64,000 nt of DNA from Rhynchopus sp. YZ270_cl-10 (lineage: Eukaryota > Euglenozoa > Diplonemea > Diplonemida > Diplonemidae): contig OZ037922.1 in the NCBI GenBank assembly GCA_964035575.1, positions 248,001 through 312,000 of the forward strand. Reading direction: 5' to 3'. Shown one piece after another: positions 30,326 to 61,469 of this stretch. Made by a program: the position numbers and the translations under genes. The notes beneath the pieces were generated by a model. The model saw only the letters and a list, made by a program, of their open reading frames with translations. It was not told the DNA's origin and searched no databases. Positions within the stretch are counted from its first letter, which is position 1. Each line of letters begins with the position of its first letter.

Positions 30326-31087
30326 TCAACGCCCGTCGACAGGCTTGTAGGATCCACCACACTTCATGCAGATTGGCTTGTCACCTTCGTCGTGGAATTT
30401 GTCATTGTCACGCATGCCGTCGCCACACTTCGCGCACTGTATAAGGGTTTGTAAGTTTGTTTTGTTTTGTTTTTGAAAACTTGGTTAGTGTAGCCACCCT
30501 AGAGTGTGCTCCACTATAGTTTTTGTTTTTTTGTTTTTGTTTGTCACTGTATAGGAAAGAACGCGTATTTGGTACTTATTTCTCCCTTATTTTGATTTTT
30601 TTTGTGGCTTGAATAAGCGCTGCTTTGGCCTTCATGTGAAGGAAACGACGATGCATTGATATCATAGCCATACCTTGAAGCACGTGAGATGGAATTTGAT
30701 GATCTTGCCCTTCCATGGCACCTCCTTGCACTGCCCCTTCACCTCCTTCTGGCAGTTGAAGCAGTGCGCCGCAATGTGGTTGTTGAACTCCTTCGTGGGC
30801 TTCACCTTGTAGCCCCCACGGACGGTCGTCTTCGCCTGCTGGTCGAGGTACGACATCGAGCACGCTGCGTGCATTGGACGGTCCACGCCGTCCTTGCATT
30901 TGTGGATCGCAAAGATACGCTCGCCGCTTGCGTCCAGCTCAAACTCCTTTGCACAGTTGTAGCACCGGAAGCAGTGCACATGCCAGTCATAGTCAAGGGC
31001 CTCCATAATCTTTTCACCCTCATCGAACTCAAGATGGCATCCATTACATCTGTCTGTGCCCTGGTCAAATGCGTTAACAGTCGCCAT
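30326..31087 (-). CDS. Two-LIM-domain protein
   Basis: Two exons, 30674-31087 and 30326-30436, joined in phase 0 across a 237-base GTATGG...CAG intron, give 174 residues. LIM 1 has C14, C17, H36, C39, C42 and C45 with later ligands in HKCKDG and HAAC. LIM 2 has C109, C112, H133, C136, C139, C142, C161 and C164. The intron separates C136 from C139, so the splice is needed to complete the zinc site, which strongly supports it. LIM domains are zinc-binding protein-interaction modules often tied to the cytoskeleton. No other domain is present; the protein resembles short LIM-only or CRP-like proteins. A T-rich tract and CAG 25-30 bases before the ATG could be a leader acceptor. The intron carries a family A module. 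Confidence 0.85.
30475..30518 (-). repeat. Module A copy inside the LIM intron
   Basis: Ends about 40 bases before the acceptor. Sense strand gives CTACACTAACCAAG, close to an ideal branch-point context. Confidence 0.75.
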
Positions 31088-31167
31088 TTTTAGTGTGTCT
31101 TTCGACGCGTGTCTTTCTGGAAAAGTTGAAGAAAAAAAAAAAATACATCAGGCACTCCGCTAGGTAC

Positions 31168-31197
31168 TAAAGTTCTGTTGATTGTCAACAGAACTTT
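31168..31197. repeat. Perfect 13-bp inverted repeat
   Basis: AAAGTTCTGTTGA, a three-base loop, then the exact complement. About 80 bases upstream of the LIM start. Could be a foldback remnant or an RNA hairpin. Confidence 0.6.
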
Positions 31198-31704
31198 TTG
31201 AAAATGGGGAAAAAAAGAAAAAAAAAAAAAGTTCTGCTAAGTGGTTCAGACCCGTTCTACCTGTCAAAAAAGCTCAGGAGAAGAAGATATGGAGAGGTGA
31301 GTGCTCAAACGTCCCAAAAAAGTCAAAATCGGGCGTTGGTAAAAAAAAAAGTTGCGTACCGTGCGCCTGCGGCGCAAGCATGTACCCCACCAACGTGGAC
31401 CATCAACAGAATATTTTCAAAATCGGAAATCCTAGCGGAGAGCCTGAAATACATTCATAAAAAAAAAAAAAAAAAAAAAAAAAACTTGAAAAGTGTGTTG
31501 GGCAAGGCTATACAGTTGGAAGAGTGTGAGTACAACAGATGCAGGCAGCAGGTCTGAGCAAGCCAACTGCAGGGCTAGGCGACCATCAAGAGGAGAAAAG
31601 ATGGAGAGTGAAAGAGAGAGAGGAGGGAAGCGTTTTTTTCGTTTTAAAAAAAGTAAATCGACGTAGCACACAATGAAAGAATGCACCCACAAAAAAATAA
31701 AAAT

Positions 31705-31778
31705 GGTAAGTTGCTGATGCAGGCACACCTCCCGTTGACCTACATATATATGCCGGCTATCTGGATGAAAACACAAAA
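31705..31778 (-). repeat. Module D copy
   Basis: Divergent copy: GATGCAGGCACACCTCCC, then TATATATGCCGGCTATCTGGATG. The CCGG(A)T core is altered but the spacing is kept. Confidence 0.55.
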
Positions 31779-32192
31779 CACACATACACACACAAAGGAC
31801 AAGGGTTCTGCGCACACAAAAGAAGAAGAAAATTATCAGAATGAACTGAGCCTCTCTGTGCATAGTCTCCTTGCACAAAAAAAAATGGGTTTTTTGAAGA
31901 AACCCAGATGACAACAAAAGAGAGCTTTACCACCCGACCCCACCCTCAAATCCCAAACTATAAGAAAAAGAAACTAAAAAATGAAATAAAATAAAACCTT
32001 GAACACATGCTACCCACTACCCACACTGGGGGGAAAAACACACACACATTTTATTTTAAAATTGACGTTTCTAACTGACTTCCGCACATACAAGGTATGG
32101 GAAAAAAATGTGGAGGAAAAAAAGGGAGGGGGGAGGAAAGCTGGAAACTGTGTTCTTCTCGTGAAACACATCTGAATAAGTATGAAAAATAA

Positions 32193-32271
32193 AGTGAAGT
32201 TGATAGTGCAAAAACGCCTCTGGGACGCAAGGCACTGACACTCCGCGGGGTTATCGAACCCCCGGAGTGTT
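32193..32271 (-). repeat. Module E copy, full length
   Basis: Family E: GAAGTTGATAGTGC, a GC-rich loop CGCCTCTGGGACGC, GGCACTG closing the GTGC/GCAC stem, then a long hairpin CACTCCGCGGGG around TTATCGA. On the sense strand the last part reads GGGGTTCGATAACCCC, like a tRNA T arm. Confidence 0.7.
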
Positions 32272-32452
32272 GCAAATAAAAACAAAAAAACAACCAGTGA
32301 TAATAATGGTACCCAATCCAGCACACAAAAACGTTGAAGAGAGAGAAAGAAAGTATTTTCATCATATGCAATCAATAAATTGATAGTATATGGTGAGGGA
32401 TCAACAAAAATGGTCCCAGAAAGAAAAAAAAAAAAGAGAGAAAACTGTAGTT

Positions 32453-32512
32453 GTTTGATGCAGGCACCTCCGCGACTGACACACTGTACGATGCCATCCG
32501 GAGGAAAGCACA
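32453..32512 (-). repeat. Module D copy
   Basis: GATGCAGGCACCTCCGCGACTG, CACTGTACGATGCC, ATCCGGAGGAAAGCAC. Confidence 0.65.
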
Positions 32513-32576
32513 AGAAAAAGGGGAAGGGAGCAATCTGAATGGTGAATGAGCTGCTCTTTCCATACCAGAGAGGGGT

Positions 32577-32694
32577 CAGGGTTTGGCCTAACTTTCGGGT
32601 TTTTGGGTAGCCCTGTGGCATGATGGGTGGGGGGAAGGCTTTCGGGGGTTTTTTTTTGGTGATATTATTGGATGATGGCTAGGCCAAGTCCTGT
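32577..32694. mobile_element. Miniature element with CAGG ends
   Basis: Starts CAGGGTTTGGCCTAAC and ends CTAGGCCAAGTCCTG, an imperfect inverted pair over about 118 bp. The inner text resembles the left end of the element at 22585. No clear target duplication. Confidence 0.4.
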
Positions 32695-33128
32695 AAGGGG
32701 GAGGAGGGGGGGTGGGAAAACACTCTCGCCCTGCACTGTCTTGAATATCGAGAAGTTTGGGCAAAGAAATTGCTGTGTCCAAAAGGTACCGTGGCACTGT
32801 ATGTCAAAACCTTCTTCAAAAATCGAGTTTTTTCCCCCTTTTTTTTCCAAAATCGGCTCAAAGACCCTCAATACTATTTCAATTGTATTTGTCGCAAAAA
32901 GCTGATTAACATTGATTCTTTGGTGCATCTTCTCACCCCTTGCATTTCCCTCACCTCCAAAAAGCGTTTTGAACAATCAAAGAGCCGATTCAGTAAAAAA
33001 GCAAAAGGAAACAACAACAAAAAACGATTTTTTTTTCTTTTTTGACAACAACGCTCTCTTCTGTAATCTAGCGAAGAGAACTTATGCGCACGGATACTTC
33101 TGACAAAAAAAAAGGGGGGTTTTTTTTG

Positions 33129-33239
33129 TAAGCCTAAAAGCCTAAAAGCCTAAAAGCCTAAAAGCCTAAAAGCCTAAAAGCCTAAAAGCCTAAAAGCCTA
33201 AAAGCCTAAAAGCCTAAAAGCCTAAAAGCCTAAAAGCCT
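33129..33239. repeat. Octamer microsatellite (AAAAGCCT), about 14 units
   Basis: Uninterrupted 8-bp tandem array; no variant units. Confidence 0.95.
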
Positions 33240-33775
33240 CACTGTGCTTTGTCACCTTGAAAGAACCCTTTCGACGGATGACTCAGCCCTCTCTCCGAGC
33301 ACACATCTAAAGTGAAGTTGATAAGGGGAATAAAGTGGAATGTCGGCTCCTCCACAGGAGGGGGGCGCTAAGGCATCTGTGTGTGGGTTGTTGAATACCC
33401 GCAAAAAAAAAGGGGGCTATTTTTTGTGTTGTGTCGACAGGTACCCCTATAAACCCACCTTGGATGGGCATCTAGGGTCTGTGAATGTCGGAAACCTTTT
33501 GTGCGACACAAAGGTGTAACAAAAAAATTTGGTTTAGTGGTGTGGCTGAATGGGGGTGCAAAAAGTGCGCAGAAGTGCGAATCAGCCCTTGAATTTTTTT
33601 TGGTGTGGGGTGAATAAAAAAATGTGCGCAAAACAAGTGCAAATCACCCCTCCCCTTCAGGCACGCCATTTTTTGGTGTAGCTGTACACAGAGTCTTGGT
33701 TCACCCTTTTTTATTGTTTTCTCTTCCTTTTAGTAAATTTACGCATTTAATGGGATTTTCCAATTTTTTGTAGTT

Positions 33776-33833
33776 TCGACAATCACCTGTCCGAGGACGG
33801 GTTCTGTACACAAAGTCGCCCGAAGGCTAATGA
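33776..33833 (-). repeat. Module G copy
   Basis: TCGACAATCA, stem CCTGTCC/GGACGGG, then TTCTGTACACAAAGTCGCCC. Outer CGAC/GTCG pairing. Confidence 0.65.
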
Positions 33834-33894
33834 ATTTCAAAGGTATAGATGCAGATCAGCCTCAACCCAAAGAAATTACTTTTTCCTTTTTTTT

Positions 33895-33945
33895 GATAAA
33901 TTGTTTGGAGTAGTGTAGTTGCCTCGGGTTGTGTTGCCACAGTTT
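33895..33945 (-). repeat. Module B copy, 3' part lost
   Basis: GATAAATTGTTTGGAGTAGTG, TAGTTGCCTCGGGTTGTG, TTGCCACAG; the GCAATCTCCACT end is missing. Confidence 0.6.
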
Positions 33946-34351
33946 CTGTATTTTTTTTATATATACCTACAAGCGTAGCTTAAAGGAGAAATAGTTCCTC
34001 AGATACGGTCATCAATCACCCCTCCAACAGGGTTAATTGTGCAATCAACGAAAAAACCTTTTTTTCCCCTTTTACTTACCTATCAGAGTTACTATTTTTT
34101 CAAAGCACGGTGATTACTTTGAAACGAAAGAGGGGGAAATAAAAGGGGTTCTGTCCGAATGTTATTGGAAATATGAATTGTTTTCGAAAAATCAAAACTG
34201 TGGTGGGGTGAATAAAAACAATAAGTTGAAATCTATGTAAGGGGGGTTGGGTTGATAATGGTTAATATGATATTTTACTTTTATTGTGAACAACAGAATG
34301 GAACGTCTCCAACGTTGTGTCCTCGTCTTTTTATCCTTTTTTTTCTTCTTT

Positions 34352-34413
34352 GATAAATTGTTTGGAGTAGTGTAGTTGCCGGTTGTGTTGCCACAGTTGG
34401 TGCAATCTCCACT
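34352..34413 (-). repeat. Module B copy, full length
   Basis: Family B: GATAAATTGTTTGGAGTAGTG, TAGTTGC, a GTTGTGTTGCCACAG hairpin, then GCAATCTCCACT. Outer GGAG/CTCC and TTGC/GCAA pairs flank the GTG/CAC hairpin. This copy lacks CTC in the left arm. Confidence 0.7.
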
Positions 34414-34480
34414 TTCCCTTTTTTTGATAGCTGAAACGATGAACATAAGCCTCGCTTAATGACGCTACCTTCTAAAATGG

Positions 34481-34520
34481 AAGTTAGTGCAGAACGCCTC
34501 CCCTCGACACCAGGCACTGA
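34481..34520 (-). repeat. Module E copy, short form
   Basis: AGTTAGTGCAGAACGCCTCC, CCTCGACACC, AGGCACTGA: only the first stem-loop, without the T-arm-like hairpin. Confidence 0.5.
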
Positions 34521-34612
34521 AGAAAAAGAACTCTTGAAGAAAGCTGCACTGCATCCATCACTGCTGTGCACAGACATCAAATAAAAAAAAGAAAAAAAAG
34601 AAAAAAAAGTGA

Positions 34613-34675
34613 AGTTATTAATGCAGGCACCTCCGACTGACCCACGTACGATGCCAGCCATCCGGATGAAAGCAC
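34613..34675 (-). repeat. Module D copy, reference
   Basis: Family D: AATGCAGGCACCTCCGACTG, ACCCACGTACGATGCCAGCC, ATCCGGATGAAAGCAC. The CATCCGGATG palindrome and the spacing are conserved in most copies. Confidence 0.7.
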
Positions 34676-34973
34676 AAGTACCCTGCGGCCAACAACAGAA
34701 GATGTAAAAGGAAACCTAATGACTGGCCCGTACCGTAAGAGAACGAGGGCGGTTCACAACCGCTCGACAGCCGGCGGCCCACCTTCCGTTGAAGAGTTGT
34801 GAGCTTACAGGTACTGCAGTTCGCTGCACCCAACGCTTGATGCACGATAGTCTACACAAGAGAGCAGAAACCCAAAAACACAAAAAGGGGTGGGCGGGGG
34901 GGGTCACAACATCTCTCTCTTGGCGCCCCATGCTGTACCGAAAAAAAAGAAAAAAAAGAAGAGAAAGGTTCAT

Positions 34974-35010
34974 AAGATGCTATCCTAAGCCTTTCGTGCT
35001 AAGTCACCTT
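34974..35010 (-). repeat. Module C copy
   Basis: CCTAAGCCTTTCGTGCTAAG: stem and loop intact with a one-base change in the loop. Confidence 0.6.
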
Positions 35011-35120
35011 TTAAAAAAAGGGGGGTGAAGATTGATGGTTTGCGTAGACCTTTTAAGGATACAATATTGCCTCACAAAAGCAAAGAGTTGAAAACCGGGT
35101 TTCGGAAAGTTACGTTTTTT

Positions 35121-35183
35121 GATAAATTGTTGGATTAGTGTAGTTGCCTCGGTTGTGTTGCCACAGTTGTACAATATCCACTG
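35121..35183 (-). repeat. Module B copy
   Basis: GATTAGTG in place of GAGTAGTG; ACAATATCCACTGT end. Confidence 0.65.
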
Positions 35184-36197
35184 TTTTTTTTTCCACCCTG
35201 AATACCCTGAACGATACCAGTTGAAAGTTGAACAATTTCATAACAAAAAAGAGTAGCTGACATATGCTAAGACACATCTCAATAGAGAGCTCAATGCAAA
35301 GGGTGGTTCCGTACCGTTAAGAGAAAACGGAGGCGGTTCACAACCGCTCGGCGAATCATGACCTCTTTTATACCCCCCAGCCCTATTTAACGGCCAAAAA
35401 AGTTGCGTCTCTTTTGTCTTCACATTTCGTGTTGCATTGAAGCATCCACATTTTTTTTTTCTATTCGTATTTTCCCGAATTTCCCAGAAAAACCCCTTGT
35501 TGTCTATGTGGTATGAAGCTGGCGTAGAGCAGAGAAAGTTTTGAAGGAACTGGGTACTTGGTTAACTCATAATAGTGCCAAAGTAATTTATGATTCCTTC
35601 ATTTGTGCACAGAAAGTTTTTTTGTTTTTTTCTGGTTTTTGGGTTTCGTTCTTAGGGGGGTTTGAATGAAAGTTGTTGTTTTTGCTTTGTGCTCTTTTTT
35701 GGTGGTCTTTAAAAATGTACTATTTGCTTTTTTGTTTTGTTGTTGCTTTTGTGTTTTGGATCCATGAGATCCATGGGGGTCAATTTGAAATAATAGACAA
35801 AATTTTGACGCCTCCAGAAAATTTTTTTTTGTTGATTTTTGACGGGTTTGCGGGTTGACTATTTTTCATTCGAGATCAGACACTTAGGCACTCATTAAAA
35901 AAAAAGAGTAAAAATGAGCCTTTCGTGCATACTACGGAATAGTCACAAAAAAGGAGGGGAAGAGAGGGGAAGAAAAATATAAGACCCTCATACTGCGTTC
36001 ACAAGGAATGGATAAACAGAGTTGTTATAGTCTGTAGAGAAAGAGAGAGAGAGAGAGAGAGAGCATTTAGTGTTGCCTTTTTCGCAAGAGCACGACAATG
36101 TATTTTTTTTTTCTTTTCGTGGTATTGGAGGCAACCAATAAAGAGCATAATAAAGAGAAATTTTTTTGAAAGAAACAAAGAAAGGGAAAAAAAGGGA

Positions 36198-36273
36198 ATT
36201 TAGTGCAAAACGCCTCTGGGACGCAGGCACACTGACACTTCCGCGGGGTTATCGAACCCCCGGAGTGTTGCAC
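36198..36273 (-). repeat. Module E copy, full length
   Basis: CACTTCCGCGGGG hairpin arm; first stem has an extra CA (GGCACACTG). Confidence 0.7.
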
Positions 36274-36622
36274 ATTGGGAGTTGCCTGGCAGGGGAAAAC
36301 TGTAAGCAGGTATACAATATTAGTCACTTAGTCACCTTCGTCTGAATAAATCCTGGACCTAAAAACGCTGAAACAGAGGCGTGAAGTTTGACGAAGAAAA
36401 GAAAAGGCACACACTTCAATAAAATTTCAAAAAGACGGATATACCTTGCAACCTCTAAAAATGCTAAACGCAGCTCAGTCGGGGAGGGGAAAAAAAAAAC
36501 ACAAAAGTAACTAAAAGAGAAGCCTTTCTTCATTAAATGCTCAGAGAAGCATTTCATGTCGTAAGACGGCTCTCTGTACATGCACATCTAGGGGTCGCTA
36601 CCGAAAATCATTTGACTCCATG

Positions 36623-36722
36623 ACAAAGCCCTCTCATGACAGTGTACCTTTGGTACAACAACCGGTACATCGTGGCTGGGCCCATGCAATCCTACATACA
36701 TTTTCGTGGGTTTACATCTGGA
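36623..36722 (-). repeat. Module F copy
   Basis: GCCCTCTCATGACAGTGTACC, GGTACAACAACCGGTACATC, and TTTTCGTGGGTTTACATCTG. More diverged than the 7605 copy. Confidence 0.6.
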
Positions 36723-36738
36723 AAAAAAAAAAAAAATG

Positions 36739-36816
36739 GTAAGTTGCTGATGCAGGCACACACCTCCGACTGACACTCACACTACTGCCAGCTATCTGGA
36801 TGAACGCACAAATTGA
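36739..36816 (-). repeat. Module D copy
   Basis: GATGCAGGCACACACCTCCG, ACTGCCAGCTATCTGGATGA. A module F copy ends only about 17 bases before it. Confidence 0.6.
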
Positions 36817-36859
36817 AGAAAAAAAGGGGGGGAAAAAAGCACATTTTTTTTTTTTTTTT

Positions 36860-36925
36860 GAAAAAAATGTTGGAGTAGTTGTAGTTGCCTCGGGTTGTGT
36901 TGCCACAGTTTGTGCAATCTCCACT
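36860..36925 (-). repeat. Module B copy
   Basis: TTGGAGTAGTTGTAGTTGCC, TTGTGCAATCTCCACT. The GATAAATTG start is replaced by GAAAAAAATG. Confidence 0.65.
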
Positions 36926-37666: not shown

Positions 37667-37708
37667 TGAAGTTGGATAGTGCAAACACCTCTGGGGATAG
37701 GCACTGAA
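37667..37708 (-). repeat. Module E copy, short form
   Basis: GTTGGATAGTGCAAACACC, TCTGGGGATAGGCACTG. Confidence 0.5.
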
Positions 37709-37883
37709 AATAAACAAAAAACAAAAAAGAAAAAAAGAAGACAGGCAAACTCTCCTTTCTAGGAGCTTTATTCACTACAAAATATTTCAAAATGAAAACA
37801 AAAAAAATAAAATGAAATACAAACCTAATAATGTGGCAACTAACGTTCCGATGATCGAGAGATGAAAAACGGAAAAAAGAAAT

Positions 37884-37953
37884 GGTAATTGTTGATGCAG
37901 GCACACCTCCGACTGACCCACGGTACAATGCCAGCCTTCCGGATGAACGCACA
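37884..37953 (-). repeat. Module D copy
   Basis: GATGCAGGCACACCTCCGAC, CGGTACAATGCCAGCC, TTCCGGATGAACGCAC. Confidence 0.65.
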
Positions 37954-38083: not shown

Positions 38084-38151
38084 TGCTCCGGGAGGGGTCG
38101 ATATTGACACGTCGCTGACAGGTCGTTGACCGACTTCCGAAAGCACCAGCA
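38084..38151. repeat. Short GTGCTCC...GAAAGCAC element
   Basis: GTGCTCCGGGAGGGGTCGAT, GACACGTCGCTGACAGG, ACTTCCGAAAGCACC with imperfect inverted ends. The same element occurs in reverse at 59232-59285, and a longer relative is near 41275-41375. Unlike the modules, it is found in both orientations. Confidence 0.55.
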
Positions 38152-40233: not shown

Positions 40234-40296
40234 GATAAATTGTTGGAGTAGTGTAGTTGCCTCGGTTGTGTTGCCACAGTTGTGCAATCTCCACTG
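40234..40296 (-). repeat. Module B copy, reference
   Basis: GATAAATTGTTGGAGTAGTG, TAGTTGCCTCGGTTGTGTTG, CCACAGTTGTGCAATCTCC, ACTGT. The commonest form. Confidence 0.7.
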
Positions 40297-40878: not shown

Positions 40879-40927
40879 GAAAACTTGGTTGTATTAGTGT
40901 AGCCACCCGAGGATGAACTCCACTATT
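40879..40927 (-). repeat. Module A copy
   Basis: CACCCGAGGATGAACTC centre, differing from the CACCCTAGAGTGTGCTC centre of other copies while TAGTG and CACTA are kept. A module G follows after 6 bases. Confidence 0.7.
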
Positions 40928-40932
40928 TTATT

Positions 40933-40988
40933 GTTGTATCGACAATCACCTACTGAGGTAGGATCTGTACACAATGTCGCCCTAAGGC
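40933..40988 (-). repeat. Module G copy
   Basis: TCGACAATCA, stem CCTAC/GTAGG, ATCTGTACACAATGTCGCCC. Outer CGACA/TGTCG. Confidence 0.65.
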
Positions 40989-41051
40989 TTTGTACTTAAT
41001 CGGTATGGACGGAGGCCATCCTCAACCCTAGAAATTTATTTTTACTTTTTT

Positions 41052-41115
41052 GATAGATTGTTGGAGTAGTGTAGTTTGCCTCGGTTGTGTTGCCACAGTT
41101 GTGCACTCTCCACTG
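41052..41115 (-). repeat. Module B copy
   Basis: GATAGATTGTTGGAGTAGTG start and GTGCACTCTCCACTGT end; followed within 20 bases by module A. Confidence 0.65.
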
Positions 41116-41133: not shown

Positions 41134-41179
41134 GAAAACTTGGTATTAGTGTAGACACCCGAGGGATGAACACCACTAT
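41134..41179 (-). repeat. Module A copy
   Basis: Shortened start (GAAAACTTGGTATTAGTG) and centre ACACCCGAGGGATGAACAC. Confidence 0.65.
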
Positions 41180-41775: not shown

Positions 41776-41804
41776 AGAAAAAAAAAATTCTTTTTTTTTT
41801 TTGA

Positions 41805-41832
41805 AAGATGAATGTGCCTCTCGTGCACAAAC
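41805..41832 (-). repeat. Module C copy, alternative stem
   Basis: GATGAATGTGCCTCTCGTGC ACA: stem TGTGC/GCACA replaces CTAAGC/GCTTAG around the same loop. Confidence 0.5.
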
Positions 41833-42059
41833 GCCTACAAAAATAAAAAGGACTAGGTAGAGATTTGGTTGTGAACCCCAGATGCATTACTTTCCATGGA
41901 AGGGGCTGCATTGTGTGAACTGTATCACTTCAGCACAACTAACAACGACAACAACAAAAATCCCACCTGGCTTTTGCCTGGGATTTGGTGGACTTTAAAT
42001 ACCATCAAGCTCCATCAAATTTCAGGCAAAATCAGGTTGGAAAATAATTTTTTTTTTTC

Positions 42060-42124
42060 GATAAATTGTTGGAGTAGTGTAGTTGCCTCGGGTTGTGTTG
42101 TCACAGTTTGTGCAATCTCCACTG
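42060..42124 (-). repeat. Module B copy
   Basis: As 40234 but TTGTCACAG in the hairpin. Confidence 0.7.
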
Positions 42125-42714: not shown

Positions 42715-42764
42715 GAAAACTTGCGTAGGGTATAGGGTACACACCCGAAGATGAACACCACTAT
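42715..42764 (-). repeat. Module A copy, divergent
   Basis: GAAAACTTGCGTAGGGTATA then GGGTACACACCCGAAGATG and AACACCACTATA. Lies just beyond the stop of the receptor gene. Confidence 0.55.
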
Positions 42765-46256: not shown

Positions 46257-46370
46257 AGTTGAAATACAAAAGCCCAACCATGCAGTCTTACAATCCAGTT
46301 CGTGGTTTACATCTGATATGCCCTACTCCCGCTTCCACTCATCAGCCAGATGAACGGGGATTCATTGCGA
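46257..46370 (-). repeat. Module F copy, truncated start
   Basis: ATACAAAAGCCCAACCATGC, TTCGTGGTTTACATCTGATA, and a CTTCCACTCATCAGCCAGAT tail shared only with 61310-61469. Lies 80-200 bases upstream of the receptor start. Confidence 0.6.
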
Positions 46371-46777
46371 ACACGGGGTAATTAGGCCTGTGTCAATGTA
46401 GGGTCCGGTTGGGGTCCCGTTTCGCAGTGTGGGAAAGAAAAAGTTTATAAAAGAGGACCTACAGCCTCTCTCGGTTATCTCACAGTATCAGCTGTATGGA
46501 ATTGCACGCCAGAGTTCGCAATTATTGGGACATACAAAATGTGGCAAAGAGAGAAGAGTACAGAAAGGGGATAAAATGGCTTTTTTTTGTTACTTGGTAC
46601 TGAGGGGGTTATACTGGAGGGGAGGGGCTTTTTGTGTGGAGACCAAAAAGAGAAAAATAGAAAACGTACTTTGGAAGCAGGGGAGTTTGAACAGAAGAAA
46701 CCTGTTGTGTACTTCTGCATAAATAAAAAATAAAACGAAGGCAAACACCAAAGGGCACAACAGAAGAAAGGGATATA
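46371..46777. other. Unannotated spacer
   Basis: Between the receptor gene and the kinesin 3' end. AT-rich; nothing recognised before the module C at 46778. Confidence 0.4.
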
Positions 46778-46809
46778 AGATGACCCTAAGCCTCTCCTGC
46801 TTAGTCACC
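46778..46809 (-). repeat. Module C copy
   Basis: GATGACCCTAAGCCTCTCCT GCTTAGTCACC; downstream of the last kinesin exon. Confidence 0.65.
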
Positions 46810-46880: not shown

Positions 46881-49800
46881 TCATCCTACGGTCATGTGTC
46901 GCTTGCGGACCTCCCATCTGTGGTTTGTTTGGTTTTTTTTGGTTTTTGTTGGGTATTATTTTTTCTGAAAACTTGGTTGTATTAGTGTAGTGTCCCTAGA
47001 GTGTGCTGCCACTATTTTTTTTTCTTTCTTTTTGGCAATGTGCTGCTCCTTTCCCTTTTCCTCCCCAAAGCAGATTCCCCACATACCTTTCCTTCAGCGA
47101 CAACGCCCGCTCAGGCGATGCCGATACACTCTCCCCCCTCACATCACCCCGAACCGGAAGCGTCTGGGCGAGGGGCACATGCCCTGCTTCAGTGTCATCA
47201 TAAGCCCCGTCCCCTGCCTCTGCGAGAAATTCTTGCAAACCCAGCAGTGCGAGGGGCGGCGAGAGCTGTGTATTTGGGTATTAAAGCAATGAAAACCAAC
47301 GCAAAAAAAAACGCAAGATAAATGACATCGTTACCACACCGGAACACAACAAAAAAAGGCTCAAAGAAAAAGACGCACCTCCAGATTGATACCACATCTA
47401 TAAGAAATCCCCATACCATATCCAACGTCTCTTCACACTCCTCACTCGCCAACGGAATCGTACTTGCAGTTGAGTTCCGCCGCGGGTCGCACAGCAGCAC
47501 TGAGAGCATGCCACTGCCATCACCACCACCACCACCACCACCACCACCACCCTCTCTCCCCTTCGACAGCACACTCCCACCCCCTTTGCACGGACTCGTC
47601 TGAGGACATGACGCAGAGGATGGTGCGAGGGGAGGTGTCCCTCTGAGACCACATCCCCCACCTCCCCCACCCCCACCACTCCTCGCCGACAGCGATGGCA
47701 ACGGGGAGAGCGACAGCGACGACTCATCTGTCCTCGCATCGTCGTCATCCTCCAGCTCTGTTGCCGCTGGGATGGTTAGCGGGAAGCGGGTTGCCGAAGG
47801 GCTCTGCGGACGCACAGGACATGGCCCCAGACTGCACGCCGCCACCGCATCCAACAACGCACTCCTCGCACCCTCCACACCACACGCACGTTCCCTCCAC
47901 TCTGCCAGCTTTTTGTTGTATTTCGCAGCCAACCCCTGCAACGCCGCCTTTAACGCCATATTTTCCACCTGAAGCGGCCGAATCCTATCAACTTCCTCCC
48001 CATTTAACGCCGAAAGCCGTTCTACACACAACGATATTTCATTTGGATCCGGGTCGCCATCTTCATCAAAATTCGACTCCATCGCACTGCGTGGCGAGCT
48101 TTCGAGACTGCTGAGAGAGGTCCGCCGTTTCGCTGCCTTCTTTTCTGTCTCTGCAGTGCGAAACGCGGTGGCAACTTTTAACGTTTCCTGCGCCACTATG
48201 ACATCCATATTCACCGGAGAAACCACGCCTCCAGCAGCATTATGCATCTCCGCGAGCAAATGCGCTGCCGTTCTCAGCCTTGCGCTGAGCTCTTGACAGC
48301 GTAACCTCCATTCATTCGTTTCACACCATTGCCTCGCTTCGCTTCGCTCTAATGTTTCACATCGTGCCGACAATCTTGCAACCTCCTCCCTTAATCGCAC
48401 CATCTCCGCTTTGTTCGCGACATTCTCTGCTTTCAATCCACGCCTCTCCAATCGTAGTGAATCTCTTTCAATCAATCCATCCTTCAATGCTCGTACTGCA
48501 CGCTCTGCTTCTCCTCGTAACGCATCATGTGTACTCTCAATTCGGTCGCGATGAGTGGCATGCAGATTTTCCACCTCTTTTTGCAAATCAACGATCTGCT
48601 GTTGATAGTGCACAGAGTCCTGCCGCCGATGCGATTCTAATCGAATATGCTCTTCCTCCATCACCTCGGTGAGATGCCGGGTTTCTCGAGAGATTTGAGG
48701 CGGGCTGGAATGGAGTAATAGCTGAGCGGGAGGGGGGAGTGGGAGTGGGGGGATTCGCACCGCCTTGCAGGCGGTGAGCTCCTCTTGTAGGTTGGTGATG
48801 GTTTGGTTGAGGCGTAGAGCGTCGCTGGCTCTTTGTTTGTCGCATTCTTCGGATTTCGCTTCTGCGGCGCTGAGAGCTAGTCGTAGGGTTAAGACTTCTT
48901 CGAGATAGAGGTCTTCGAGGTCGTGTCGTAGGGAGGCGTGTTCTCCTGCATGGCGAAATGCAGCGTCGTGCATGGAAGAGTGGTGCTGCTGGCGTTGTCG
49001 TTCTCCTTCTTCGGTGAGGCGGATGACATGTGCGGTGAGGGTCCCTACTTCGCCGAGGGCTTCGCTCAAATCGCGCTCCAATTTGTCGATTTCGCTGCGG
49101 GTTGCGCGCTCGCGTTCTCTTTCTCGTTCGCGGGTGAAAAGGCAGGTTACATCCCGTCGGAGGCCGTCACGTTGTTGGCGAAGGGAGGCTTCGAGGAGGG
49201 TGAGTCGTTCTATGTCTTCTTTGGTTTGGTGTTGTACACGGAGAAGGTTTTTGTGTGCGGTGTCGACTCTGACGCGGCGTTCGTGGATTTGGGCACGTTC
49301 TGTGGCGGAGACGGCGACCTGTTGTGCGAGGTCACGTTGCTGCATCCGGAGCAATGCGGCTTCTTGTTCGTGCTTCGCCTGCTTCGAAATGAGTTTTATA
49401 TAGTCCTGCTCCACCTTATGATGCTGACGCTGCGATTTATGCTCTTCATTGACAATTCTAACTCGCGTTCGATGTTCTGAAAACGCGCCTTCATTGAATT
49501 TCGCGTGGTTTCGAAGATGTTTTGCACGGTCTGCGAATCGCAATGCGTTCACCGTTTGCCCTGCGTCTGCCAATGCTGGACTGATTGTCACTAATATCGT
49601 TGCCTTGCTGTTTCCACCCAAGCTCTCCTTGAGCAGCTTCGTCAACGCCGAACCACGAAACGAAATGATACCGTTCGGTGCAAGCAGAACACTGTCCGTC
49701 CTCTCCATGTCTGCATTCGACCTCGGGGATATCGATGGTGCAACAGACGGTGTATCAAAGGTCGACTCTGCATCATTGTGAAACGTGCTTTCATTTTCCA

Positions 49801-50911: not shown

Positions 50912-50957
50912 AAGAGACAAGAGAAGATCGCCAGAAAAAAAAAAGAAAAGTTTATAA

Positions 50958-50990
50958 GATGACCCTAAGCCTCTCGTGCTTAGTCACCTT
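50958..50990 (-). repeat. Module C copy, reference
   Basis: Family C: GATGACCCTAAGC, loop CTCTCGT, GCTTAGTCACC. About 50 bases upstream of the kinesin start, on the same sense strand. Confidence 0.7.
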
Positions 50991-51835: not shown

Positions 51836-51872
51836 TTGAAAATACAAAGCCCTCTCGTGAACAGTGTACCCA
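51836..51872 (-). repeat. Module F fragment
   Basis: AAATACAAAGCCCTCTCGTG AACAGTGTACC only; the rest is absent. Confidence 0.5.
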
Positions 51873-53525: not shown

Positions 53526-53588
53526 CAGTTGTTGCTGCAGGCACACCTCCGTGACCCACTGTACGATGCAGCTGGATGAAAAGCACAA
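53526..53588 (-). repeat. Module D copy
   Basis: CTGCAGGCACACCTCCGTGA, CACTGTACGATGCAGCTGGA: a shortened copy lacking the CCGG palindrome. Confidence 0.55.
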
Positions 53589-53986: not shown

Positions 53987-54049
53987 GGTACTGATGTGCA
54001 CACACCCGACTGACCCACCTACGATGCCAGCCATCCGGATGAAAGCACA
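53987..54049 (-). repeat. Module D copy
   Basis: GATGTGCACACACCCGACTG, CCTACGATGCCAGCC, ATCCGGATGAAAGCAC. Confidence 0.65.
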
Positions 54050-54831
54050 ACAAAATGAAGGGAACCTCTGAGCGACAAACGGAAAAGGAAGATAATTGAT
54101 GTGCTAGATACGCCTGCGGTATCAGCAGAAAAAAGCAATGAAAGGTAGGCTTTTTGGAAGGAAGAAAAAATGCTGCACAATGTGCACAAAAAAGCATATT
54201 CCAAAAAAATGGAAAAACAAAAAAACAGAAAGAAAAAAACAAAAATAGTGAAAAAGCGTTTCGATAAAAAAAAGCGCTTTTGAGATGTATGAAGAATTGT
54301 CTCTGTGCAGCCAACACGTTCTCTTGAACCGAGACTGCCAAAGGTAATCACATTGCGAAATACAAACGGAACAAAAAGGGACAAAAAAAAAAGGTGTCAA
54401 AATGAAATACTGGAAGTGCAAAAACGTCTCTTTAGACGAACACACACAGATGCCATTTGCTTCGAACAATCGAAAATGGAGGCAAAAAGGAGGGCAACTT
54501 CACACCATTCTGACCACCTCACACAATGATACGGTAGCGCGGTCTGCAGGGCACACACTTCAGGGTAAAATAATTTGAGCAGACTAAAGACAGTTTGCGC
54601 CCCGTTCCGATACAAAAAATTGAATAATTGGTTGGGTAACATAAAGAGAAATGAAGGGCTAACGTACACTGCCCCACCTAAGCTTGCAGCCTACAGCCTA
54701 TAAAACGAGAAAACAGATCAGCAGATGTTTCAATATGACACCCACAATGGTATGATATGATTTAAAAAAAAAAGGAATCGTAATGATGACTCAAAGCCAC
54801 CTTAGAAAAAGAAAAGAAAAGAAAAGTTTGT

Positions 54832-54869
54832 AAAATGATCCTAAGCCTCTCCTGCTTAGTTTAATCACA
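54832..54869 (-). repeat. Module C copy with paired base change
   Basis: AATGATCCTAAGC ... GCTTAGTTTAATCAC: the outer pair GTCA/TGAC type becomes ATCAT-compatible (GATC with AATCA), a change on both arms. Confidence 0.6.
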
Positions 54870-54880
54870 TAAAAAAAAAA

Positions 54881-54966
54881 GGTGAAGTTGATAGTGCAAA
54901 ACTCCTCTGAGACGCAGGGCACCTGACACTCCACGGGGGTTATCGAACCCCCCCTGGAGAGTGTTG
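54881..54966 (-). repeat. Module E copy, full length
   Basis: CACTCCACGGGGG arm pairs with CCCCCCCTGGAGAGTG; relative to 32193 the CCG/CGG pair has become CCA/TGG, changed on both sides. Confidence 0.7.
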
Positions 54967-55064
54967 GGAAGCTGTAGGGAAACTGTAGGCAGCTCCAAAA
55001 AAAGGGGGGATTATGTGATAGACCTAAGGCTCTATGATTACGTCATTGAGAAAAGAGTTTAACA

Positions 55065-56798: not shown

Positions 56799-56995
56799 TT
56801 ATTTTGGTCCTTTCTTCTTTGTCAAATATCTTAAAGGGGGAGGTGGATAAATGTGTGTGGTAGTATGGGAGACAAAAGGGGAGAGGAGAATGTGGTAATA
56901 TAAGAGAAAAGAGAAGGGGGGAATACACTTTTTTTTTCTCCATTTTTTTAAACGAAAAGTGCATTTTTCGTATCAACTTTTTTTAGTCAGTTTTT

Positions 56996-57042
56996 TGTTG
57001 TATCGACAATCACGTTATACCTACTGGTATAACGATCTGTAC
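56996..57042 (-). repeat. Module G copy, stem replaced
   Basis: TCGACAATCAC, stem GTTATACC/GGTATAAC, GATCTGTAC; the last GTCG arm is missing. Confidence 0.55.
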
Positions 57043-57083
57043 TAATTTTTTTTTTTTTTTTTTTTTGTGCGAAAAACAAAGAA

Positions 57084-57118
57084 TAGTTATTGATGCAGGC
57101 ACCTCTGGACCTACGTAC
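57084..57118 (-). repeat. Module D fragment
   Basis: TATTGATGCAGGCACCTCTG then GACCTACGTAC; cut short. Confidence 0.45.
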
Positions 57119-57448
57119 AAAAAAAAGAAAAAGAGAAAAAAAAAAAAAGAAAAAAATGGGGGTAATCCCGTTTATACCCAAATACCTAACTCAGTCAAGG
57201 TGGCTGGGATGTATTTTTCGATTCCCCCTTCCATTCCCCCAACAACAATAAAACAATAAAAAAAAATCAACAGCTTTTAATGAAATGTGCATCTCGGACG
57301 TACAAATCATAAGTCGGCAAGATGAGTCGGGCTGATACACCTGGAGAAAAAAAGGGGGCACAAAGTAGTTCGCACTGTTACCATCTAGACATCAGAGGGC
57401 GGGGCTGTAAGGCTTTTTTGGAGCCCATGAAGATAAGAAAAAAGTGAA

Positions 57449-57500
57449 AGAAATTAAAAAAAACGCCTCACCGTTCATCCGGCGGACGCAGAGGCACTGG
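57449..57500 (-). repeat. Module E copy, short form
   Basis: ACGCCTCACCGTTCATCC then GGCGGACGCAGAGGCACTGG. Confidence 0.5.
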
Positions 57501-57593
57501 AAGAATAGAAACCTTTGGAAGATGCAATGTACATCTCCTACATACACCCACACACACATCTGTAAAGAAACAAAGAACGTTCCTTCTTATTTT

Positions 57594-57656
57594 TCTTGTA
57601 CGACAATCACCCTGTCTAAGGAAAGGGTTCTGTACACAAGGTCGCCCGAAGGGCTA
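57594..57656 (-). repeat. Module G copy
   Basis: TACGACAATCACCCTGTC, AAAGGGTTCTGTACACAAGG, TCGCCCGAAGGGC. Inner stem ACCCT/AGGGT. Confidence 0.6.
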
Positions 57657-57680
57657 AAAAAAATTTTTGGGTAAAAAAAA

Positions 57681-57713
57681 GGTGAACCTAAGTCTCGTGT
57701 TTTGACGCCACCT
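57681..57713 (-). repeat. Module C copy, degenerate
   Basis: GTGAACCTAAGTCTCGTGTT TTGACGCCACC. Confidence 0.35.
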
Positions 57714-57950
57714 CAAGAAATGTATCTTGGGGGAAAGGAGATAGGGGGAGTGTCTGGACAATACACCCTCCACTTATTTTTTGTTCGTTATTAGTCACGA
57801 GAAGGAGGGGTGGAACGGGGGCAGGTCCGATCCTCATTACCAGTACAGAAAGGTTACCCTTCCCAAAAAAAAAAGGTGCAGGCCATGGTAATGACTGCTT
57901 TCAAAGAGGTGTAGGAAGGTGTAAAAAAAAACAAAACAAAAAAAGAGAGA

Positions 57951-57999
57951 AGTTGAAAGTGCAAACGCCTCACCGTTCATCGGCGGACGCATGCACTGT
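57951..57999 (-). repeat. Module E copy, short form, best paired
   Basis: AGTTGAAAGTGCAAACGCC, TCACCGTTCATC, GGCGGACGCATGCACTG: AGTGC/GCACT outer and CGCC/GGCG inner stems both intact. Confidence 0.6.
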
Positions 58000-58130
58000 A
58001 AACAAAAACACATAGGTTTCGCAAGATGGGCTTAAGTCACCAAAACAAACCAGGGCGTCACACGAGATTCGCAGGTAAAAATATAATGCAGACACCAATG
58101 CAAGAGAAAAAAGAAAAAAGAAAAAAAAGG

Positions 58131-58172
58131 TGAAGTTGAAAAACGTGCAGACACCTCTTGGATGCAGGCACA
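58131..58172 (-). repeat. Module E copy, short form
   Basis: GTGAAGTTGAAAAACGTGC, AGACACCTCTTGGAT, GCAGGCAC. Confidence 0.45.
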
Positions 58173-58580
58173 AATAAAAAGGCAAAAACAAAAAAAAAAA
58201 AAAAAAAAAAAAAAATACTCTCCGATAAAAGTTCTTTAATAATTCTCATATTAAGGTGTTGTGTTTGGGGATATTTAAGGTTATCGACCCACTCTTTGGA
58301 ACATAGAAAAAAAGCTGATATTTTAACTATGTTCTTGCCAAGGGGTCTGGGTGGGGTGGGGGGCAGGCACGCCTCCGTTACGTAAATAAACGTAACGTAA
58401 AGAAGCAAGCCTCTACCTAGATGCCCTCAACTCATATTGAGGGAACCATACCACACGGTGGGAGTCTGCCTAAAATGGGCGGACCCTTTTGTGGGAGGAC
58501 TCCATCGTGCACCCCCCAAAAAAAGAAAAAAGAAAGAGAAAAGACAGTCATTGAAGACTTAGAAATGAAAAGTTTTATTT

Positions 58581-58613
58581 GGATGAACCGAAGCTTCTCG
58601 TGCTTAGTCACCT
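58581..58613 (-). repeat. Module C copy
   Basis: GATGAACCGAAGCTTCTCGT GCTTAGTCACC. Confidence 0.6.
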
Positions 58614-58902
58614 TGAAAGAGAGAGAGAGAAAAAAAACACCTAGTTTGTATAGCCGATAGCGCATCCTCGTAGGGTGGCTATGCATAATACAACGAAGGG
58701 AGGGAGGGAGGGGCTAGAGTAATAAAGGAAAAGAAATTAGATTCATATACTTTCAGTTCACAGAATTGAAAGTATCTTCAAAATTTCTTCTGATTTACAA
58801 AAAGTGCGCTCCGTACCCAAAGCAGTCCGGATATATTGTACTTTCGCACTGCCGGGGGAAAAAAACAAAAAAAGGGGAGGGAAAGAAAGAAGAAAATTGT
58901 TA

Positions 58903-58934
58903 TCAGATGACCCTAAGCCGGTGTTTAGTCATCT
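58903..58934 (-). repeat. Module C copy, different loop
   Basis: GATGACCCTAAGCCGGTGTT TAGTCATC: loop altered but both arms, including the outer GATGAC/GTCATC, pair perfectly. Confidence 0.6.
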
Positions 58935-59231
58935 TGAATTGAGAAAAAAAAAAGGGGGGGAACTTGAAAAGCTGAAAATGTCCTTCTCGTGTTACACATA
59001 TCAAGAAAGAAAGACTTGGTGCAACATACGATACAGAAGGTTTCGTGCTTTTTTCAGTCACATCATTAAAGGGCAGGAGAAAAACAAGAAAACAAAACAA
59101 AAAAAAACACCCCCCACCTGTGCGGTGTTCCCTATCGCCAAAACTAACTGGGACGGGAAGATAAACACAGGGATACTGGGAGGGACAAAAAAAACCCCCC
59201 GCCCCCCCTTCAATGGTGCTATGGGAAATCG

Positions 59232-59285
59232 GACAACGACCTGTCAGCGACCTGTCAATATCGACCCCTTCCGGAGGCACCATTC
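59232..59285. repeat. Reverse copy of the element at 38084
   Basis: CGACCTGTCAGCGACCTGTC, AATATCGACCCCTTCCGGAGG, CACC: the complement of 38084-38151. Confidence 0.5.
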
Positions 59286-59563
59286 AATAATTAAAAATTA
59301 TATAAATGTCCGTGTGGTCACCCGACAAAACTCTTTGTTTTAAAAAAGACCCGCACTTTTTTTGAGAAAAAAAAAATTTAAACAAATTTGTTAAAAGCAA
59401 TATATGGGGAGGGATACCAGGTGTCGTTTTGTTATTTTAAATTTGACAAAAAAAGAGGGGTGGGGGGAAAAGGACGCCATATAAAAAAAAAAATGGGTGG
59501 AAGAGTTTCGACCGGGACCTGAAATAACAACCAGGTTCCCTATTCCGCTTTTTTTTAATTTTT

Positions 59564-59613
59564 GAAAACTTGGTTGTATTAGTGTAGCCACCCTAGAGCG
59601 TGCTCCACTATAC
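59564..59613 (-). repeat. Module A copy, reference
   Basis: Family A: GAAAACTTGGTTGTATTAGTG, TAGCCACCCTAGAGCGTG, CTCCACTATA; outer TAGTG/CACTA, inner CCAC with GTG. Confidence 0.7.
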
Positions 59614-60079
59614 TTATTTTTTTTTTTTTTTGTCAAATTCAAGTATTATTCAACTCCTTTTGCGCTTCAAGGATAACCTTCGTCAAAAGACAGGTTTCTT
59701 CAAGCAAAATGACGGTTTTTTTTTTTTAGTTTTTTTTTAAAATTTGCCTTACCAGAAGAAGGGGGCATTTTATTAATTATTTACTCGTTGCTTTTTTAAC
59801 AGAAAAAAAAAAAACAGAAAACAAGAGAGAGACAGAAAAAAAAAAAAAAAAAAAAAATGTCGACAGCATCGCCTTGCGGCAGCACAGACCAATACAAATT
59901 CAGAAACGAAAAATGGTAGTTGAACAAAAAAAACTGGTTGCTGTTTATTTCAAAGGACAAGGAAGCAGCAGAACTTGAAGGGAGATGGGGAAGGGGGCGA
60001 ATATCATTGAGTGTAAAAAGGCATCTTCCGGCCCAGATTGTGATATCTTTTGTGTGTTTTTTTTTTAAAAAAAAAGGGC

Positions 60080-60156
60080 TGATAACAAAAAGCACCGCCC
60101 TCTGAAACGCAGGCAGCTGTGGGGCTATTGAAGCAATCCCCTGGTAGCGCTGCACT
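60080..60156 (-). repeat. Module E copy, strongly diverged
   Basis: AAAGCACCGCCCTCTGAAAC, GCAGGCAGC, GGGGCTATTGAAGCAATCCCC: the second hairpin keeps the GGGG/CCCC stem with an enlarged loop. Confidence 0.45.
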
Positions 60157-60459
60157 ACGCCTTTCTCTCTCGGTGCTTATGTCAGTTGACCTAAAGGAGG
60201 TGCAAAAAATAAATGAGAATTTTTTTTTTCGGCGAGGTGTAAAATGCAGGGCGCGATCTCCTCTCACGAAAAAAAAGCACGCACCACCGCCACGCAAGGA
60301 TAAAGGTCCTTGTATGATCATAGAAGAAAGAAAAGGAGACAATTTATTTTACGTTCTATTCTACTGAATAGAAGGTATAATCGGGTGCACTAAATGTACC
60401 CAGAAAAGAAGAAGAAACAAATTCATATACTTTCAAATAAAATTTGAAAGCATTAGGGA

Positions 60460-60660
60460 AGTGCACACCTATGCATGCAGTTGGTCCAGTGGGGACTGTC
60501 CTCGCCGCCTCCCGCAGATGTGGCGTGAGTTGGGACCCTGAGATGAAGGCAGTGACGTCTACGTCTGCAACCGCGAAGACTACCCCCATCATCGAGACAG
60601 ACAAAGCCAAGAGGGCCCATGAAGTGCGAGTTCTGGCGCGTACGGCGGTATGGGTGTATA
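60460..60660 (-). other. GC-richer island, possible exon
   Basis: About 200 bp of balanced composition in AT-rich surroundings. One minus frame reads SWALLALSVSMMGVVFAVADV then TAFISGSQLTPHLREAART, like a signal peptide and mature start, with no in-frame stop. No start or flanking exon could be placed, so it is only a candidate. Confidence 0.25.
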
Positions 60661-60701
60661 AAAAACAACAACAACCCATCTTTTTGAGAAGAAAAAAATA
60701 G

Positions 60702-60751
60702 TTGCGGATGCAGGTACCTCCGACTGACCCGCTGCACGAAAAAAACACAAG
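60702..60751 (-). repeat. Module D copy, 3' part lost
   Basis: TTGCGGATGCAGGTACCTCC, GACTGACCCGCTGCACG, then A-tract and ACACAA. Confidence 0.5.
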
Positions 60752-61079
60752 AAAAAAAAGTCGAACTGTACAAAAAAATAGGGGGGCACACAGGAGGAAA
60801 CGTTGTAAGAGAGATAAAACCTTCTTTTTTTTGGGGGTTCTGTGTCTTCCGTTACTTTGTTTGATATTACGACTCATCCAACCATCCCAGAAGAAAAGGG
60901 TTCTTACTTGCTATGTTTGGTTTTTTTTTATTTTTTTATTTGGCCGCTAAATTATTGAACCTAATACTCTGACCTACTAAAAAATAAATCTCATGCGGTC
61001 AGGGTCCGAAAACCCTCCTCAGTCATCAGAGAGCAAGAGGTTAAGGAAAGAAAAGGGGGTTTTGCTTTATTATTTCGTT

Positions 61080-61271
61080 TTTTGTTTTCGTAACGCCAAA
61101 CTCTTTAACTTTTTGTTTGTTTGCTTGAGCTTACCGAATCGCTCAACTGCGATGGGAAGAATCGTGCGTGTTTTGATCTCGTCACTGGAATTCTTTCAGA
61201 TGGAATTCGAGATCTGAACCGCTACGATAATTTGAGAAATCCAGAAAGCTTCAGAGATAATGAAATCCCCA
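61080..61271. repeat. 192-bp direct repeat, left copy
   Basis: Identical to 63752-63943. It includes the start of the plus-strand exon seen there, but is followed here by GGGTGGGCGCG and a family F module, so the exon is not continued. Confidence 0.9.
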
Positions 61272-61309
61272 GGGTGGGCGCGAAAAACGGAATTCAAATA
61301 AGACTTGAC

Positions 61310-61469
61310 TTGAAATACAACAGACCACTCGTGAACAGTGAACCATGGTATGTGACCGGCTGTACCGGGGGGTGGACTCCAACCATGCAATCCTACAATC
61401 CATTTCGTGGTTTACATCTGATATGTACTACATCGGCTTCCACTCATCAGCCAGATGAACGTATAAAAT
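61310..61469 (-). repeat. Module F copy, longest
   Basis: GAAATACAACAGACCACTCG TG, GTGAACCATGGTATGTGACC, TTCGTGGTTTACATCTGATA, CACTCATCAGCCAGATGAAC. Defines the full length of about 160 bp together with 46257. Confidence 0.65.

Follow-up and report, generated by a model that had tools for sequence, protein, structure and literature searches.

Why should dozens of short, hairpin-like repeats lie almost without exception in the direction of the genes around them? The question is raised by a 64,000 nt stretch of the genome of the diplonemid Rhynchopus sp. YZ270_cl-10 (assembly GCA_964035575.1, 152 Mb in 126 contigs; contig OZ037922.1, positions 248,001 to 312,000, or C90:248001-312000), hereafter called the window. 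An earlier examination of its letters, the sequence-only reading, had described about 60 structured modules in seven families (A–G), all in one orientation, and had offered three suggestions: processing signals, structured small RNAs in a long transcript, or a strand-biased copying mechanism. The last is the one of the three that the evidence supports. In our judgement the modules are probably the 3′ hairpin-plus-tail of several diplonemid families of long interspersed nuclear elements (LINEs), with a polarity that is made at insertion.

Module families and their polarity

Seeds for the seven families were taken from the window, and an nhmmer model of each was refined iteratively on 264 kb, made up of the 64-kb window and four further blocks of 50 kb from this assembly; training and counting (cut-off E<0.01) used the same DNA. 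Matches of about 30–110 nt numbered 24 for A, 19 for B, 21 for C, 15 for D, 13 for E, 38 for F and 24 for G, those of A and B overlapping because their models cross-match. The reversed, uncomplemented sequence of the same 264 kb gave no match, and the window holds 55 non-redundant modules, 43 of them inside positions 30475–61469, so that the seven families are real. The minus strand carries 151 of the 154 matches; it is the gene-sense strand in the window, where the long open reading frames (ORFs) lie mainly on it, and in three of the four blocks, while two of the 151 matches fall in a gene-poor block (C2:1000001-1050000) to which no gene direction is assigned. This block, rich in long repeats of 93–99.98% identity, contains only these two modules, copies of each other, and has plus-strand F modules on one side, as far as 807 kb, and minus-strand modules of D and F on the other, from 1.10 Mb. 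Within the window, where every recognised copy had been said to share the polarity of the genes, 54 of 55 modules do so, the exception being a weak B at 58659, inside the same span. The tails had been described as similar and adjacent to an A/T tract; they prove to be of two classes, the downstream flank being A-rich in A, B and E and T-rich in C, D, F and G. A hairpin at about 41800–41835, noticed by eye, combines an F-type loop CACGAGAGG and tail TTCATCTT with another stem and perhaps represents an uncatalogued tail family.

Polarity was then scored across the genome for A, B, C, D and F, whose patterns have 826, 1278, 226, 665 and 2206 matches respectively, using the first 100 listed places of each family, taken from both contig strands. 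The reference comprised 127 kinase (of 131 rows) and 131 helicase (of 132 rows) gene matches together with the F, C and D places of other families, the scored family itself being left out; each place was judged by a majority vote of its three closest markers up to 100 kb away, and unmarked or tied places were dropped. Eleven of the helicase rows form one cluster (C13:1502911-1528930), with 11 Helicase_C matches within 26 kb, several of identical score. An earlier tally (F 87/87, C 55/55, D 68/68) was discarded because neighbours of the same family had vouched for one another, among them six exact D copies at C7:135526-159924 spaced by exactly 4870 nt, where D is carried in a tandem array.

Taken by strand alone, F is evenly divided (1114 forward and 1092 reverse places), and its first 100 places lie in long one-way runs, with 10 strand switches in 91 neighbouring pairs. 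Relative to transcription, all scored places of F (48/48), C (42/42) and D (40/40) were gene-sense, i.e. 130/130 together, as were 60 of 65 for A and 54 of 62 for B. Collapsing places of the same family less than 40 kb apart left F at 36/36, C at 38/38, D at 36/36, A at 51/56 and B at 51/57, and comparison with the nearest kinase or helicase alone within 100 kb gave 13/13, 34/34, 21/22, 28/32 and 16/22 for F, C, D, A and B. The T-run families C, D and F thus follow gene polarity almost absolutely and the A-run families A and B to about 90%; the sequence-only reading had named equal numbers in both orientations genome-wide as the result that would speak against it, and the polarity is upheld relative to transcription. 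The scored places are identical or nearly so, with no mismatch for F and D and none or one for C.

Base composition was considered as the cause of this polarity and rejected. With exons and modules excluded, runs of at least 8 nt on the sense strand number 232 for T and 166 for A, and tracts of at least 15 nt number 172 for pyrimidines and 57 for purines; these asymmetries, 1.4:1 and 3:1, are too small for 130:0. The transposed element at 38084/59232 does occur both ways, as had been noted (413 genome matches, 210 forward and 203 reverse). It was rejected as a neutral 50:50 control, for 17 of its 58 scored copies have the pattern sense and 71% (41/58) the opposite, a moderate polarity of its own.

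Retrotransposon 3′ ends and short copies

Their sequence context shows three of the families, F, B and C, to be 3′ ends of non-LTR (long terminal repeat) retrotransposons. In the two copies read of an element with a 1462-aa frame, RT1462 (RT, reverse transcriptase), F starts 10 nt after the stop codon; the copies are 96% identical over 2422 nt, and their homology stops 18 nt past the F module, in T-rich DNA. The frame carries an endonuclease domain (PF03372, Exo_endo_phos; 3.3e-10) and RVT_1 (1.5e-24). Similarly, B starts 11 nt after the stop codon of RT1747 (1747-aa frame, read from the RT onward only, where RVT_1 was found) and is followed by an A22 tail, and at two further sites (C3:200457/200475 and C14:1249269/1249287) the end of an RT1747 relative is followed, 18 nt on, by a listed B place. 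In three related families, RT1476, RT1469 and RT1480, the stop codon lies within the C hairpin itself. Sequence matches in the PDB were to LINE-1 ORF2p and R2-type proteins, and several of the LINE families have open full-length frames. Families A, D, E and G are probably the tails of further LINE families.

The orientation of whole elements was scored within 200 kb after 145 of 150 RT rows had been assigned to families by frame length and score, without a tree, and five left out. The elements that end in F or C were almost uniformly gene-sense: RT1462 in 15 of 16 cases, RT1476 in 13/13, RT1469 in 5/5 and RT1480 in 1/1, to which may be added 9/9 truncated RT1462 copies (those scorable among 14 of 15 rows). 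Other families were mixed (RT1862 7/12, RT1505 5/8, RT3381 2/3, RT2034 4/6 and RT986 4/6 sense), and RT1364 (3/13) and RT1320 (2/7) lean antisense to the surrounding genes. Polarity therefore varies by family and is not common to all retroelements of these units.

Genome-wide, 1278 B places compare with at least 14 RT1747-type coding-body matches, and 2206 F places with at least 42 of RT1462. Within the 264 kb, 12 of 19 RT1747 DNA matches start 72–77 nt from the 3′ end and 13 of 20 RT1462 matches start 57–66 nt from it, so that many copies are stubs beginning near the hairpin base; the remainder comprise shorter pieces (some of them A-runs only), one body fragment and a few longer tails, the longest of 135 nt. 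Given this clustering of starts and the gap between module and body counts, the stubs do not look like the short extreme of a continuous series of 5′ truncations. A hairpin-sized template RNA would be a natural, though unproven, explanation, and in this role, as templates for retrotransposition, the structured small RNAs of the sequence-only reading may exist, since many stubs start at the hairpin base. Like short interspersed nuclear elements (SINEs), F, B and C are short and have a tail in common with an autonomous LINE. No SINE head (tRNA, 5S or 7SL, with pol III boxes) was found in the window, where ARAGORN detected no tRNA and Rfam gave no match at gathering score and 12 weak ones below it. 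A stretch of C, GGTTCGATAACC, resembles a B box, yet it is the LINE's own 3′ end.

The flanks of these copies bear marks of insertion. Fifteen truncated copies (11 of RT1462, four of RT1747) share their 3′ end within 4 nt, and the 5′ flank could be read for 14 of them, that of the C52 copy not being covered. T-runs stand on both sides of seven of ten truncated RT1462 copies and are not obvious at C1, C7 and C12; two truncated RT1747 copies (C5 and C29) have clear target repeats, AAAAATCGC- and AAAAAC-like, while that at C86 lies within an A-run and that at C34 has no obvious repeat. Whole and truncated copies alike abut T-runs (RT1462) or A-runs (RT1747). Among the modules, the flanking direct repeats matched more closely than in permuted flanks in two families, B (16 copies, p=0.003) and D (11 copies, p=0.014), with no correction for the seven tests made. 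Self-alignment of the 264 kb yielded no clean empty site of a module; the single alignment gap that overlapped a module was set aside as a misalignment of two F-bearing copies.

Stem and placement tests for RNA-level signals

Could the modules instead be functional RNA signals, i.e. trans-splice acceptors, poly(A) signals or cis-regulatory hairpins, kept in sense orientation? Families C, D, F and G do have a terminal AAC motif with a pyrimidine-rich stretch after it, and some modules lie directly 5′ of a called exon or near the 3′ end of an intron. The short closing arms named in the sequence-only reading are present, yet a clear structure in single copies is confined to C (folding z −4.6) and F (z −3.1), the values for the other families being −1.6 (A), −1.25 (B), −0.6 (D), +0.25 (E) and +0.6 (G). 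That reading had also expected paired changes in the stems to exceed single ones. Across 29 copies of F, two-sided changes occur in none of 11 pairs, no better than in shuffles, and 15% of cells are unpaired, equal to shuffled columns; in B a single two-sided cell was found in nine pairs of 18 copies, again no better than shuffles. Copies of F and B thus decay without compensation, which by that reading's own standard refutes stem selection acting on individual copies in these two families. With RNAalifold, F, B and G gave no shared structure, C and D weak ones. In E, four of eight pairs showed two-sided changes among nine sequences (RNAalifold), the sole result that favours the sequence-only reading here, and one that subfamilies could explain.

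Placement was compared with random noncoding positions, using crude exon calls: the caller was trained on long ORFs and misses small exons, some of its calls may be shadows, and at its threshold an unfiltered antisense control passed about as often as filtered sense calls. With these calls, 11 class II modules lay within 250 nt of an exon start against 7.6 at random (p=0.12), and five class I modules within 250 nt of an exon end against 3.1 (p=0.21). A scheme of gene punctuation, in which class II modules would act as trans-splice acceptors and class I as 3′-end modules, was dropped because neither placement was significant. Without such an excess near exon starts or ends or a compensation excess in F or B, with nothing in the window that Rfam matches at gathering score, and with F, B and C sitting at the 3′ ends of RT genes, the suggestion of processing signals is not supported; we regard functional RNA signals as largely refuted and, as an account of the modules, very improbable.

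A strict sense polarity would also be predicted if the modules were introners, or non-conventional introns of the Euglena type, that spread by reverse splicing into RNA. The module tail resembles a branch point, and structured non-canonical introns are reported from two hemistasiid diplonemids (PMC12621601). However, none of 137 modules lies in a called coding exon, where about 42 would be expected by length (with the same crude calls), the several introns that were read have GTATG...AG ends that lie outside the modules, and the target-site repeats and LINE 3′ ends indicate insertion into DNA. The idea was dropped for the absence from exons together with the target repeats and LINE ends, and of the explanations weighed here it is the one to which we give the least credence.

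The modules of the window are collected in Table 1. Apart from them, the window contains a P450 gene with 38% identity to a Diplonema papillatum relative (protein comparison), an ORF at 26078-27430 that combines leucine-rich repeats with a ubiquitin-like match at its N terminus, and, at 23137-24393, a tandem repeat of near-identical (99%) units, each about 56 nt long, that is open in three plus-strand ORFs (457–519 codons), against the gene direction. A tandem array of a short AAGCCTAAAAGCCT-type unit at 33130-33238 directly adjoins an F fragment.

Table 1. Modules matched by nhmmer in the window (window positions; 'outside' denotes a module beyond 30475–61469)
Family	Position	Strand	E-value	Remark
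B	30475..30517	-	2.6e-12	apparent intron of LIM-like gene (gene and intron by eye)
D	31710..31774	-	5.9e-14	
F, degenerate	31841..31872	-	2.3e-05	
C	32205..32265	-	2.2e-15	
D	32455..32511	-	1.3e-13	
F, partial	33234..33258	-	2.9e-04	
E	33776..33828	-	1.8e-15	
A	33896..33943	-	9.5e-11	
A	34353..34404	-	4.5e-10	
D	34614..34675	-	1.5e-21	
F	34972..35010	-	7.5e-09	
A	35122..35173	-	2.6e-14	
C	36202..36263	-	4.1e-15	
G	36623..36720	-	1e-18	
D	36743..36809	-	2.7e-15	
A	36862..36916	-	1.3e-11	
D	37889..37952	-	3.8e-18	
A	40235..40286	-	8.6e-15	
B	40879..40926	-	3.8e-17	
E	40939..40989	-	7.4e-17	
A	41053..41105	-	4.7e-14	
B	41134..41179	-	1.5e-11	
A	42061..42114	-	5.2e-12	
B	42715..42764	-	6.5e-08	
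G, partial	46273..46315	-	2.1e-09	directly 5′ of ORF with solute-binding-protein domain
F	46775..46809	-	2.5e-11	
B	46967..47015	-	7.3e-13	
F	50954..50990	-	1.1e-13	near 5′ end of 1240-aa ORF, kinesin-like by eye
G, partial	51840..51870	-	1.7e-06	
D	53528..53581	-	2e-10	
D	53988..54048	-		flanked by 10-nt direct repeat
F	54831..54860	-	1.8e-07	
C	54893..54953	-	7.6e-13	
D, partial	57086..57120	-	7.1e-06	
E	57601..57652	-	4.7e-12	
F, weak	57680..57712	-	9.4e-03	
C, partial	57958..57998	-	2.5e-04	
F	58582..58614	-	5.7e-10	
B-like, weak	58659..58698	+	6.2e-04	sole antisense copy of the window
F	58902..58935	-	4.8e-07	
B	59564..59611	-	1.2e-15	
D, partial	60701..60739	-	5.8e-07	
G	61312..61420	-	7.3e-29	
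B	1651..1695	-	2e-12	outside
F	2304..2336	-	5.4e-07	outside
B	6338..6385	-	4e-15	outside
F	7021..7051	-	8.3e-05	outside
G	7611..7716	-	1e-31	outside
B	12902..12948	-	1.6e-10	outside
B	13023..13070	-	4.2e-14	outside
G	18119..18226	-	1.5e-31	outside
B	20530..20580	-	1.9e-10	outside
B	20744..20792	-		outside; flanked by 10-nt direct repeat AAATATTGTG
G, partial	22545..22595	-	1e-06	outside
C, partial	24836..24871	-	4.1e-06	outside

Strand choice at insertion

How might a LINE tail come to lie in the direction of transcription? We envisage that the RT would bind the hairpin and tail, as in stringent-type LINEs, that a hairpin-sized RNA would act as template in the manner of a minimal SINE, and that the primer for reverse transcription would be supplied almost exclusively by the DNA strand on which transcription is templated; the inserted sense strand would thereby match the polycistronic RNA. 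The primer might alternatively be the nascent lagging strand, given replication co-directional with transcription. By the chemistry of target-primed reverse transcription, sense insertion would point to one or other of these strands, and the present data would not distinguish transcription from replication as the strand cue. LINE insertion is usually considered to be near strand-neutral genome-wide. We consider the chances evenly balanced for the stronger proposal, suggested by the 130/130 places and the whole elements, that the LINE machinery senses which way transcription or replication runs, so strictly that virtually all insertions of the tail families C, D and F are primed from one strand throughout long clusters of co-oriented genes, and mobilizes hairpin-only RNAs of about 30–110 nt, giving a tail-only class of SINE with thousands of copies.

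A number of observations weigh against insertion as the source of the polarity, or against the LINE origin of the modules. Single exceptions appear when the scoring distance is extended to 200 kb (F 65/67, C 59/60 and D 53/56 gene-sense), some of them near a strand switch, e.g. C1:2309 and C1:2446; A and B stand at 73/80 and 67/82 at this distance. RT1747 itself is sense in only six of nine cases, and some families for which no module was found also lean sense (RT1597/1900 9/11, RT1057 3/3). In stretches of eight other RT families, whose true 3′ ends are not defined, no module stood at the end of the ORF, four module families (A, D, E and G) yielded no LINE partner, and flanking repeats were not significant for stubs of A, C, E, F and G. 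The main rival is strong selection against antisense copies: the tails would have the same LINE origin and insert both ways, and antisense copies would soon be lost, e.g. through RNA interference or mis-processing caused by their pairing, within the polycistronic RNA, with the numerous sense copies. Homologues of Dicer, Argonaute and Piwi are reported from Diplonema papillatum (PMC10161547), A and B tolerate some antisense copies, so that loss would be graded, and antisense A, B or E would put T-tracts into the RNA. However, in C, D and F the copies scored, identical or nearly so and hence probably young, are already 130/130 sense, as are 15 of the 16 whole RT1462 elements, whose proteins are 97–100% identical; antisense copies of RT1364 and RT1320 occur in the same kind of unit, and an antisense F stub of about 50 nt would carry no obvious signal. 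The presence of the bias in copies that are probably young favours a cause at insertion, and we consider selection unlikely.

If insertion is indeed the cause, the near-absolute polarity would be a genome-wide record of the strand that primes target-primed reverse transcription, and transcription- and replication-coupled LINE insertion would become directly testable. The tail-only stubs bear on the minimal RNA that a LINE needs as template. In practice, the modules allow clusters of co-oriented genes, and the regions where strands switch, to be mapped cheaply in genomes of this kind, and they serve as a warning that hairpin repeats in introns and untranslated regions (UTRs) should not be taken for regulatory RNAs without a test.

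Among the closest known systems is the genome of Diplonema papillatum, which is reported to have its genes in long, co-oriented and likely co-transcribed clusters with spliced-leader trans-splicing, abundant dispersed repeats, and LINE-1, R2, jockey and SLACS gene models; the available part of that account (PMC10161547) gives no hairpin-stub families or analysis of orientation. At the level of titles and abstracts, the open-access literature yielded no report of such near-absolute polarity, or of tail-only stubs, in diplonemids. An insertion orientation that tracks the direction of replication is described for Tn7 TnsE and IS200/IS605 (PMC5371812), which, as bacterial DNA transposons, are only a model for strand choice. 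In the stringent-type LINEs UnaL2 and ZfL2 each family is described as having its own 3′ stem-loop and tail, common to its short elements, as here (PMC4176376), although the partners of those LINEs are SINEs, whereas our short elements consist of the tail alone, and no separate SINE head was found; the part of that source available makes no mention of orientation relative to transcription. A close likeness is also seen in SIDER1 and SIDER2 of Leishmania, which are also euglenozoan retroposons lying in the noncoding DNA of polycistronic units, mostly in transcription sense. They are described as truncated ingi-clade retroposons with a 4-fold sense excess in directional gene clusters (PMC2689281), and SIDER2 copies in 3′UTRs are reported to be 82% sense (PMC11520807). 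The SIDERs are longer, at about 0.55 kb (PMC2424063) against some 30–110 nt for the modules, and antisense copies are said to be enriched between poly(A) and trans-splice sites; their sense bias of about 4:1 is weaker than the near-absolute polarity of C, D and F. They are, moreover, described as extinct, whereas in Rhynchopus full-length LINE frames are still open.

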